Source of the DNA: Cyanobium sp. Tous-M-B4 | GTDB lineage: Bacteria; Cyanobacteriota; Cyanobacteriia; PCC-6307; Cyanobiaceae | DNA: 64,000 nt | Direction of reading: 5' to 3' | Assembly: GCF_024345395.1 (NCBI RefSeq) | Contig: NZ_JAGQBA010000005.1 | Coordinates: 62,001 to 126,000, forward strand | Part shown: positions 52,749 through 60,829 of the stretch, one piece after another | How positions within the stretch are numbered: position 1 is the stretch's first letter | Layout of the letters: every line of letters starts with the position of its first letter | Program-made: the position numbers and the translations under genes | Notes under the pieces: model-generated | What the model was told of the DNA's origin: nothing | What the model saw: the letters and a program-made list of their open reading frames with translations, nothing else | Database searches by the model: none

Positions 52749-52822
52749 CGGGGCGTGGCGCAGCTTGGTAGCGCGGGTGCTTTGGGAGCACTAGGTCGCA
52801 GGTTCGAATCCTGTCGCCCCGA
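52749..52822 (+). tRNA. tRNA-Pro(UGG)
   Basis: A 74-nt cloverleaf: 7-bp acceptor stem (CGGGGCG with CGCCCCG), D arm with GCAGCTTGGTAGCGC, anticodon stem GGTGC/GCACT with loop TTTGGGA (anticodon TGG at positions 34-36), and T arm with GGTTCGAATCC. No CCA is encoded; discriminator base A at 52822. The sequence to the right has mobile-element content, so the 3' end of this tRNA is the likely attB core. Confidence 0.97.
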
Positions 52823-56649: not shown

Positions 56650-57497
56650 TAGAAGAGATCAATGGAATCCAAATCAATGCCTAAGGTTTCGGGAAGGCTG
56701 AAATCTTGAAAGACAGGACGGAATGCCTGGCGCCCGTGACTCGGCCAGCTGCCGGTGGCCTGGCATTCGGCGATCCGCCGGAAGGCCTCCTCCCGCCGCT
56801 GCAGACCTTTTTCCAGGTCTTGCCCATCAAAGATGAGCAGGCTGCAGTCGATCGGGGCGGTCAGATCGCTAGGCCACTCAAAGGCGATCACCCCGGTCTC
56901 GAGCGGCGGCTGCCCATGGCGGTCCTCATGGCCTAGGGCCAGGTGGGCTAGCTGCAAGTCATAGGCCAGGTCCTTGGCCTGCCAGTAGAACTTCCGCGGC
57001 ACGGCGCTGCGGGTCTTCTTGAGGTCAAACAGCCGGCCGTCGCTGGTGACCACATCCGGCAGGCAGCGGCAGGGCCGGCCCGCTTCGTCTTGCCAGAAGT
57101 GGGGCTGCTGGCTGAGCGACGGGTCCAGGGCCGCCAGCACCTCGCCCACCACTGGGTCGGCGTGGAGGGCATCAGCGATGCGCTGGGCCTGCTCCACCAT
57201 CTCGACGCTGACGGGTGTCAGTCCGGCTGCTTCCGCTTCTGCGCAGTTGGCGGCGCCGATCTTGGTGTTGCGGGCGATTGATCGATACGCGGCGAAGCGG
57301 TCATCAATCCGAAAGGGGGGCGTCAGCAGGGCATCGACCAGATCGCCTTTGACCATGTCCGCCGAGGGAACGAATTTTGCGGCCCCTGGCCCGAAACGAT
57401 GGCTCCAGGTCCGCATCGTGCCGGTCACTGCAGCCTTGAGCGCCGTGGGGGACCAAGCGGGATGGCAGTGATACTCCGCCAGAGAGAAATTGCTCAT
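56649..57497 (-). CDS. RecE-like PD-(D/E)XK exonuclease
   Basis: 282 residues. PD-(D/E)XK core: helical N-part with SPTALKAAVTG and VKGDLVDALLTPPFR (phage-exonuclease entry motif), catalytic region CRCLPDVVTSDGRLFDLKKTRSA (PD...D-x-K), and YDLQLAHLALGHED helix. It resembles RecE C-terminal and DUF3799-like nucleases that resect dsDNA ends to give ssDNA for the RecT partner. The stop overlaps the recT-like start by one base. Four nt into its start overlap the preceding gene. Confidence 0.8.
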   Translation of the reverse strand: MSNFSLAEYHCHPAWSPTALKAAVTGTMRTWSHRFGPGAAKFVPSADMVKGDLVDALLTPPFRIDDRFAAYRSIARNTKIGAANCAEAEAAGLTPVSVEMVEQAQRIADALHADPVVGEVLAALDPSLSQQPHFWQDEAGRPCRCLPDVVTSDGRLFDLKKTRSAVPRKFYWQAKDLAYDLQLAHLALGHEDRHGQPPLETGVIAFEWPSDLTAPIDCSLLIFDGQDLEKGLQRREEAFRRIAECQATGSWPSHGRQAFRPVFQDFSLPETLGIDLDSIDLF

Positions 57498-57874
57498 GGC
57501 GAATCCTCCAGGCCATAGCCCAGGACGATCCGCCGCGCTTCTAGCAGCGAGGGGCAGAGACCTGAATCAATCCCGCCGCCGCCGCAGTGCAGCAGCGTTG
57601 CCACGTAGCTCCCGCAAATGCTCTGCCGGAAGCTGATGGCGATGCCGTGGCCTGCCAGGGCCGCCAGTGAGTCGGCTGTGATCTCCCGCCAACGCTGCTG
57701 CCACTGGGCCAGAGCGGCGGAGAAGGAGGCCTGGATCAGGATGTAGTGCTCCAGATCGGAGCGTTGCAACCCCTTGGAAGCAGGGGGCAAGGAGAGGGAA
57801 GCCGTAAAGGCTCGTTCGCGTTGATTCACCTTTCCGCAAAGAAGGATGCCAACGCTACCCCTGCGGTTATCCAT
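57494..57874 (-). CDS. Small phage-type hypothetical protein
   Basis: 126 residues from ATG 57874 (the frame is open further upstream). Sequence DNRRGSVGILLCGKVNQRERAFTASL...DLEHYILIQASFSAALAQWQQRWREITADSLAALAGHG is mixed alpha/beta with no recognised family. It ends inside the first codons of the RecE-like gene. A GGGAACCCTTAA element sits 3 nt upstream of the start, the same as upstream of the next gene. Confidence 0.6.
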   Translation of the reverse strand: MDNRRGSVGILLCGKVNQRERAFTASLSLPPASKGLQRSDLEHYILIQASFSAALAQWQQRWREITADSLAALAGHGIAISFRQSICGSYVATLLHCGGGGIDSGLCPSLLEARRIVLGYGLEDSP

Positions 57875-57876
57875 TC

Positions 57877-57888
57877 GGGAACCCTTAA
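57877..57888. promoter_or_regulatory. Candidate operator copy 1 (GGGAACCCTTAA)
   Basis: Exact 12-mer shared with 58672-58683, with a GGG-NN-CCC dyad. Lies 3-14 bp upstream of the minus-strand start at 57874. Likely recognised by an element repressor. Confidence 0.5.
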
Positions 57889-57906
57889 GCCAGGTATTCC
57901 GGTACC

Positions 57907-57919
57907 GCATAAATGCTTT
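57907..57919 (-). promoter_or_regulatory. 13-bp motif shared with the window's right end
   Basis: AAAGCATTTATGC on the minus strand (57907-57919) is identical to 63981-63993 on the plus strand. Its core GCATTTATGC is a dyad with a 2-nt centre. Here it lies upstream of the minus-strand gene starting at 57874, next to the GGTAGC inverted repeat. Confidence 0.4.
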
Positions 57920-57922
57920 TTT

Positions 57923-57946
57923 GGTAGCGCACGCGACGGCGCTACC
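57923..57946. promoter_or_regulatory. Inverted repeat GGTAGCGC/GCGCTACC
   Basis: Perfect 8-bp arms (57923-57930, 57939-57946) with an 8-nt spacer, in the gap between the start at 57874 and the stop at 57975. T-runs flank it on both sides on the plus strand. A related GCTACC/GGTAGC pair exists at 60580-60614. Operator or weak terminator. Confidence 0.45.
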
Positions 57947-57974
57947 TGCTGCTTTTTGGCATCCTCTGCGCCTG

Positions 57975-58658
57975 TTATGCCGCCTTGCTGAGAGGCTCGC
58001 TGGGCTCCAGCTCCGGGGCCACCTCCCGCACCCAGGCATGCAAGGCCTCACGGGCGATCGGGACGAGGGCCGGGCCCAGCCGCTCCCCGGCAAACAGGGC
58101 GTTCTCGATCGCCACTACCTGCTCCATCGGCAGATCTCCCGCCTTGCGCAACACCTGCATCGCGGCGGACACCGGCCGCAGCCCGACCAGTTCCAGGGCC
58201 TGATCGAACAGGCTGCGTAGCCGCTTGGTCTCAGCCTCGGCGTCGATCTCCTCCTGGCATGGCCAGAGTTCGGCGGGACCCTCCAGCTTGCCGATGTAGC
58301 AGGCGAACCAGTCTTCTGCGCCCCAGGGGCGGCCGTCGGCATGCAGCACTGGCCTTGCCCGCTGCACCCGATCGCGCAGCAACCGGTCCTTGATCGCGCC
58401 TCGCTCCTCTTGCGCCAGGCACTCGTTGAGCACCGCCAGCTGGATGAAGGTGCTGGGCTGGGGCTGCAACACCTTGCTGTTCTCCAGGTTGCCCCACTGG
58501 CCGCCGGCGACCCGTAGCGGCCAGGGGATCAACCCTGGGCAGGCCTTGGCCCAGTCCTGGGCGGTGGTGACGGACCAGTCATTGCTCTTGCGCCAGTTCC
58601 GCAGGAACTTGCCGAACTGCACTCGGGCCGCATCCAGCTTGTCCTGCAGGCTTTGCAT
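57975..58658 (-). CDS. XRE-like N-terminal hypothetical protein
   Basis: 227 residues. The N-terminal ~65 residues (FGKFLRNWRKSNDWSVTTAQDWAKACPG...GGQWGNLENSKVLQPQPSTFIQLA) look like an XRE-type helix-turn-helix. The rest is helical (DAEAETKRLRSLFDQALELVGL...), with no enzymatic motif. As a likely DNA-binding regulator of the leftward operon it could be the element's repressor. A GGGAACCCTTAA site lies 14 bp upstream of its start. Confidence 0.6.
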   Translation of the reverse strand: MQSLQDKLDAARVQFGKFLRNWRKSNDWSVTTAQDWAKACPGLIPWPLRVAGGQWGNLENSKVLQPQPSTFIQLAVLNECLAQEERGAIKDRLLRDRVQRARPVLHADGRPWGAEDWFACYIGKLEGPAELWPCQEEIDAEAETKRLRSLFDQALELVGLRPVSAAMQVLRKAGDLPMEQVVAIENALFAGERLGPALVPIAREALHAWVREVAPELEPSEPLSKAA

Positions 58659-58671
58659 GGGGTTACCGTTT

Positions 58672-58683
58672 GGGAACCCTTAA
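58672..58683. promoter_or_regulatory. Candidate operator copy 2 (GGGAACCCTTAA)
   Basis: Exact copy of the 12-mer at 57877-57888, 14-25 bp upstream of the minus-strand start at 58658. It directly follows a -10-like TACTTT read on the minus strand (AGTATC region), so it could block RNA polymerase. Confidence 0.5.
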
Positions 58684-58811
58684 AGTATCCCGTGCTTCTT
58701 GCTAAGCACCAACCCCCAATGGTCGGCTTCGTGACAGGCTGTTACGGGCAATATGAGCTCGATCAGCGGTGACAGTTACGGGGGGGGCTGAGGCAAGCCG
58801 CACCGGCCTGA

Positions 58812-60628: not shown

Positions 60629-60829
60629 ATGAAGCGCGTACAGCTGCAGCTCCCTGAGCCCGTCGTCGCCTGGATCGACCGCAACGCCGACGGCATCGAA
60701 AGCCGCGCCTCCTTCGTCAGGCGCACCCTGGTGCAGGTGATGCGCGGCGACGAGCGCAGGCTGCCCCCTGCCCCCAGCGATTCCCTTTCCAGCGACTCGC
60801 TGTCCAGCTATGGGGCTTCCCTGCGCTGA
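60629..60829 (+). CDS. Ribbon-helix-helix (CopG/MetJ-type) regulator
   Basis: 66 residues: KRVQLQLPEPVVAWIDRNADGIESRASFVRRTLVQVM is the beta strand-helix-helix of RHH DNA-binding dimers. Ser/Asp-rich tail. The stop overlaps the primase start (TGATG), so it is coupled to the replication gene, as copy-number or antitoxin-like RHH regulators often are. Target sites may be the adjacent GCTACC/GGTAGC pair. Confidence 0.85.
   Translation: MKRVQLQLPEPVVAWIDRNADGIESRASFVRRTLVQVMRGDERRLPPAPSDSLSSDSLSSYGASLR

Follow-up and report, generated by a model that had tools for sequence, protein, structure and literature searches.

Putative Operator Sites before a Regulator Gene and Recombination Genes of a Cyanobacterial Prophage

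Two identical 12-mers before consecutive leftward genes in the prophage region of a Synechococcus/Cyanobium-type cyanobacterium are, as judged by sequence comparison, probably the best-preserved pair of an operator set, which would be bound by the product of gene R, thereby regulating R itself and controlling gene 2 and the exonuclease and recT-like genes. The sites are conserved among sister loci and change in step with R; those of the window, meaning the whole 64-kb stretch of DNA analysed, are listed in Table 1. One operator would be located in the promoter and leader of R, covering the presumed start of transcription and the bases that precede the start codon; a second one would lie 44 nt before gene 2 and a third one 38 nt ahead of the recT-like gene. 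A small phage protein, putatively of the HTH type, R would bind those sites, probably as a dimer, to switch off its own promoter and adjust the expression of the gene-2, exonuclease and RecT recombination genes. Repression is proposed because the site at R overlies the presumed start region of this gene, taking ATAC as the -10 element. As in an autoregulated repressor, a conserved site is found both in the own promoter or leader and at another early gene. This kind of switch, with phage operators and a candidate autoregulator, is ordinary, and it is this example that is newly mapped. By conjecture, the downstream gene for a Bro-N antirepressor-like protein would fit a repressor/antirepressor switch.

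Table 1. Genes and putative regulatory elements of the window (positions of the window; minus, leftward).
Feature	Position	Strand	Basis or remark
RecT-like annealing protein gene, 447 aa	55306..56649	minus	PHROG 561, E 3.2e-55
Third site, core TTCCCGAA	56688..56695	minus	38 nt ahead of the recT-like start, within the final exonuclease codons
Exonuclease VIII-like gene, 282 aa	56649..57497	minus	PHROG 412, E 1.2e-34; DUF3799
Gene 2, 111 aa counted from the conserved GTG, without Pfam match	57494..57829	minus	Start codons of sister loci
Second conserved block of the gene-2 leader, GGTAGCGTTGGC	57848..57859	minus	GGTA[AG]C[GT]TTGGC
Gene-2 site, core TTCCCGAA	57874..57881	minus	T[TA]CCCGAA in 12/12 group-1 loci
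12-mer copy in the gene-2 leader	57877..57888	minus	Window search
Gene R, 227 aa, weakly XRE-like putative phage regulator	57975..58658	minus	Homologues, HTH_31 in relatives, AlphaFold2 model
R operator (site B, putative), imperfect 20-bp dyad GGGTTCCC-RAAY-GGYAACCC	58660..58679	minus	Ends 1 nt before the ATG of R
Site B core TTCCCAAA	58669-58676	minus	TTCCC[AG]A in 13/13 group-1 loci
12-mer copy upstream of R	58672..58683	minus	Window search
Possible -10 hexamer of R, GATACT	58684..58689	minus	ATAC invariant in 13/13 loci; inferred
Upstream box A position, eroded here (CTTAGCAAG)	58698..58706	minus	Weak in this prophage

Occurrence of the 12-mer

The 12-mer, GGGAACCCTTAA on the forward strand (57877-57888 and 58672-58683) and TTAAGGGTTCCC in gene orientation on the minus strand, has exactly two matches in the window, also when up to one mismatch is allowed, compared to a shuffle mean of 0.09 per window and none of 100 shuffles with at least two copies, which bears out the pair of identical words described in a sequence-only reading of this DNA. 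The distances given there, 3 nt before a start and 14 nt before the XRE-like gene, were slightly off, as 2 nt separate the first copy from ATG 57872-57874 and 13 nt separate the second from the ATG of R (58656-58658). That reading would have been refuted by many copies in host DNA or by a lack of conservation in sister elements, and neither is the case. The word is nearly absent from host DNA, the 2.74-Mb genome having one further copy on a different contig (C2), within a 938-aa ORF, and the element is conserved in the sister elements.

The closest sister loci form group 1, which comprises 13 loci (the window, L099-L109 and L115) with R proteins 78-99% identical. When the word common to the R and gene-2 leaders was evaluated within single loci, it was significant alone in three of the 12 group-1 loci tested, namely the window (p 0.005) and L099 and L109 (0/200 shuffles each). 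A chance repeat is scarcely credible nonetheless: nine of the 12 loci lack significance on their own, but the shuffle statistics, the conservation of the sites across sister loci, the position of the dyad pattern, always beside R orthologues, and the core of the third site in 13/13 loci, as can be seen below, all stand against it.

The GGG-NN-CCC dyad pointed out in both copies is present in the window, although the sisters do not keep its GGG arm at the gene-2 site, where the triplet before TTCCC is GGG in four, GCG in seven and GCA in one of the 12 loci; as GGG is thus replaced in eight of them, this dyad was rejected as a functional unit. The core is TTCCCRAA in the lineage of the window and YT[CG]SCGAR more widely, and the three occurrences of TTCCCRAA in the 64 kb are the three sites. 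Operators at two promoters, as suggested from the first look at the sequence, are still the best reading of the repeat, while the core had to be redrawn, a third site before recT was added and the start of gene 2 proved misplaced.

The Site Upstream of R

The 110 bases before R are largely dissimilar in the 13 group-1 loci, except for the block ATAC...GG.TTCCC.A..GG.AACC abutting the start codon. The mean pairwise identity is 0.79-0.88 in this block against 0.35-0.66 in windows upstream (11 of the 13 loci, leaving out L099 and L108, which are also left out of the gene-2 leader comparison, with 10 of 12 loci). Box A, located about 30 bp from the R core on its upstream side, reads YTCGCGAA in L102, L103 and L106, with related words in some other loci. 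A sigma-70 scan found no promoter.

The 19-bp dyad pattern GGGTTCCCRAAYGGYAACC, allowing up to one mismatch, was found at five places in four of 201 genomes, and each of the five adjoins an R orthologue, 2-3 nt before it. As the reversed control gave six matches in the same genomes, it is the position of these places, and not their count, that is informative. The pattern marks five of the eight close R orthologues (78-100% identical) in the 201-genome sample, the three missed ones having a different centre, GATG (L106-L108). The own genome has the shorter pattern TTCCCRAAYGG four times, at these two sites and at two other places, compared to 13 for its reversed control; hence, the short core by itself shows no genome-wide enrichment. 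Likewise, inverted repeats upstream of R family members in general were no better than chance (48 upstream regions reduced to 25; Fisher p 0.38). The core and clade-motif patterns were written after the sites had been seen, and the counts from the 201 genomes and the set of sister loci are not independent, since, by contig number and place, L101/L104, L102, L103, L106/L108, L107 and L113 coincide with matches in G195, G015, G139, G171, G033 and G188, respectively.

The dyad at R could also be regarded as an RNA hairpin beside the start codon, controlling translation, as it offers seven consensus pairs (-8.6 kcal/mol) and ends next to this codon. This is very improbable, because none of the seven pairs has compensatory changes, two pairs are broken in one locus each, the folding is no better than that of shuffles (z -0.56) and the second arm is unconserved at the gene-2 site. 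Another explanation, which takes the block for a promoter or activator element of the phage and not for a repressor site, would account for the same strand and the same orientation of all three sites towards their genes, as well as for the invariant ATAC just upstream at R in 13/13 loci. However, the distance from core to start differs among the sites (10 nt at R, 44 at gene 2 and 38 at recT), and the word of the divergent group 2, CTCGCGAG, is perfectly palindromic, as a site for a dimer should be, making this explanation improbable. Operators bound by R are preferred over both.

Gene 2 and Its Leader

At the gene-2 site, the core is exactly TTCCCGAA in 11 of the 12 group-1 loci. Identity in this leader (10 loci) reaches 0.80-0.91 in the core and 0.82-0.86 in a second block, with 0.31-0.73 in the rest before the core. 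The second block, GGTAGCnTTGGC at 57848-57859 (minus strand), is a conserved feature of the gene-2 leader of group-1 loci in its own right; its pattern GGTA[AG]C[GT]TTGGC occurs a single time each in the window and in the nine other group-1 loci searched, and in none of the five group-2 loci. Between R and gene 2, a hairpin GGTAGCGC...GCGCTACC at 57923-57946 is terminator-like on the forward strand only.

A conserved GTG or ATG follows the gene-2 core by 43-44 nt in 12/12 loci, being the GTG at 57827-57829 in the window (44 nt), so gene 2 most likely starts at GTG 57829. The ATG at 57874 was considered as the start and rejected, occurring only in the window and in the near-identical sister L099. 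Regarding the other leaders, L100, L102 and L103 have an in-frame stop just before the core and no start codon until the conserved one, and L109 has a stop between the core and the conserved start; other in-frame starts after the core are seen in L106-L108, and neither a stop nor another start in L104 and L105.

The Third Site before recT

A weight matrix made from 25 R and gene-2 sites finds, besides the two known sites, 56687-56703 on the minus strand (TTTCAGCCTTCCCGAAA, score 18.4), while column-permuted matrices give 0.04 matches per 64 kb at this score and 0.17 at 16.3 or more. All 10 group-1 loci with a readable exonuclease end have the core TTCCCGAA at the recT position. As this site lies in coding sequence, its codons were compared. 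Wherever two loci share one of the residues Leu-Pro-Glu, they also use the same codon for it, and the synonymous identity of the six codons here is 0.90 against a mean of 0.72, the 11th highest of 276 such stretches, which is no more than suggestive. Stronger support for the third site than this synonymous identity comes from group 2 (L110-L114), where the protein differs at this place and the DNA keeps the core as CTGCCGAG in three loci or CTCCCGAG in two. In the codon alignment of the exonuclease (13 loci, leaving out the near duplicates L099 and L108, L102, in which the exonuclease frame ends early, and L103, where the contig ends), the core stands at the third-site position in 13/13 loci, and no other position has it in at least two loci.

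Two other matches of the matrix tell against the third site. In the wider own region, outside the window, there is one of 16.2 at 107969, and another at L100:3716 (AATTCGGGTTCGCGAAA, score 18.3), about as strong as the third site, lies near the start of the relative of the 172-aa ORF (L100:3619-3143). Core-like matches are also located in L104 (14739) and L105 (14673).

Gene R and Its Product

In Pfam, PHROGs, NCBIfam and PADLOC, no family is matched by the R protein of the window. The profile HTH_31 is matched by nine of the 15 members of the R alignment (best E 6.8e-5), the window protein itself not being one of them, and no HTH profile was matched at E<=0.01 by a distant R paralogue of the same genome (L004) or by two group-2 members. 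In the AlphaFold2 model (14 sequences; mean pLDDT 81), helices are predicted at 4-25, 33-39, 55-59 and 68-82, the N-terminal ones being compatible with an XRE domain whose helices 2 and 3 are joined by a long loop. When this model was searched with VIA-align, many lambda-type HTH rows appeared at Z about 3-5, below the reliable range of the tool, covering both halves of R and the C-terminal half more often; the best row was the ChiS DNA-binding domain (Z 5.4). Foldseek returned nothing at E<=1e-3. Autoregulation by an XRE-like protein, already put forward as possible in the sequence-only reading, remains the best reading, with the binding by R being inferred and the XRE label weakly supported.

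The nearest named match of R comes from Synechococcus sp. HJ21-Hayes (99% identical), the others being named Synechococcus, Cyanobium or cyanobacterium. R-like matches (E<=0.001), mostly remote, are found in 152 of the 201 family genomes, where small genomes often have a single remote copy; this remote family-wide homologue is possibly a host relative of the phage regulator. Some genomes have several copies, with nine in G181 and four in the genome of the window, which raises the question of cross-talk between resident prophages. The paralogue at L004:4067-4816 belongs to a second region of the same genome (G000:C2:65000-84999), in which the surrounding ORFs look phage-like by eye and an inverted repeat GCTTGC-AATG-GCAAGC precedes the gene, not significant alone (p 0.23).

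Divergent R Groups and Their Operator Words

In group 2, R is 46-52% identical to that of the window. The word CTCGCGAG is found at the aligned place of the gene-2 site in 5/5 loci, and the recT position has CT[CG]CCGAG. Their gene-2 leaders have CTCGCGAGAGG aligned with TTCCCGAAAGG (comparison leaving out L099, L108 and L115). In the R promoters of this group, CTCTCGCGA is found upstream, and either CTCTCGGGAA or CTCTCGCAA directly ahead of the start. In the five loci, R and gene 2 share a word in inverted orientation, with p values of 0.000-0.045, uncorrected for two orientations. A third clade, with R about 30-35% identical to that of the window, has the motif CTTAGCCTYTCGCTAATGGC at 14 places in 13 of the 201 genomes, all 14 just upstream of an R match, and the reversed control gave none. 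In three clade-3 stretches examined, relatives of the terminase and Bro-N-like genes are present and exo/recT genes are absent.

These words also bear on the identity of the binder. The sites could be operators of another protein, either a host regulator or another phage protein, such as the product of the 66-aa ORF (60629-60829) or a separate lysogeny repressor, R being merely a target. The weakly supported HTH of R would allow for it, and so would the constant linkage of sites and R, because of which their covariation does not single R out. Still, this is rather unlikely, as the dyad pattern occurs only beside R orthologues (5/5) and clade 3, even without exo/recT neighbours in three stretches, again has its own motif before R (14/14). 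The reading with R as the binder is kept. With slightly less than even confidence, it may be extended: R would found a cyanobacterial prophage-regulator family that is unnamed in the libraries searched, each clade having its own operator word at R and, in two clades, also before gene 2 and recT, so that word and protein diverge together. If true, this divergence means that immunity groups of prophages could be read from sequence, and clade-specific operator words could sort Synechococcus and Cyanobium prophages into such groups.

The Prophage Setting

The leftward neighbours encode a VRR-NUC nuclease and a helicase, then R, gene 2, the exonuclease VIII-like and RecT-like proteins, an 81-aa ORF, SSB and the Bro-N antirepressor-like protein. 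A primase gene is the rightward neighbour, and terminase and portal genes come next, outside the window. The longer sister loci share many of these neighbours, although several differ in the genes upstream of R. Synechococcus phage S-H1 (MK105819) is similar in having relatives of the primase (45%), the helicase (64%) and, weakly, the exonuclease (28%); unlike the present region, no convincing R relative was found in 33,671 of its 39,158 bases (best tblastn E 0.44). The phage-type genes, the recurring neighbours and the S-H1 relatives of primase and helicase indicate that the region is a prophage or a prophage remnant.

Its ends were not found, as the 3' end of tRNA-Pro (52749-52822) has no second exact copy of 14 or 18 nt in 60 kb, and no integrase was seen among the proteins scanned in a non-exhaustive look. 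The phage-like genes are interrupted by a RuvA gene, probably of the host, which is located on the forward strand (L002:5955-6674) between the terminase/portal genes and the one for a major head protein (L002:8707-9648). Just to the right of the structural genes, on the same contig and right of the window, are the BREX genes BrxL, PglX and BrxC (L002:15275-17299 and L003:94-8030), and a 97%-identical BrxL relative adjoins a clade-3 prophage in L131.

Outside cellular genomes, R relatives were found neither in the phage collection at E<=1e-3 nor in the viral contigs or phage records searched. In the viral contigs, the pattern TTAAGGGTTCCCNAA has one match in each of 62 stretches, the dyad pattern is present in two stretches, neither of them encoding relatives of the tested prophage proteins, and the gene-2 leader pattern has no match. 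A literature search at the level of abstracts, limited to the terms used, apparently gave no publication on this element.

Comparison with Known Systems

To our knowledge, lysogeny regulation in picocyanobacteria is poorly known. The operator core presumably does not resemble the cyanobacterial LexA/SOS box. Controller (C) proteins of restriction-modification systems have sites at their own promoter, and C.Esp1396I and C.AhdI, small HTH proteins of this kind, are similar to R as a putative HTH protein, being also among its weak fold matches. However, R is about three times longer, the fold match is weak (Z about 4) and no restriction-modification gene is present among the annotated neighbours.

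Lambda CI and Cro, P22 C2 and the 434 repressor are autoregulatory XRE-type phage repressors. Compared to them, R is located within a leftward gene run and not in a divergent CI/Cro pair, and it has no matched CI-like peptidase domain, nor any Pfam match at all. Besides those differences, the resemblance lies in a small protein, putatively of the HTH type in the case of R, that is encoded in the early region of the phage and has short near-palindromic sites both at its own promoter and at another early one.
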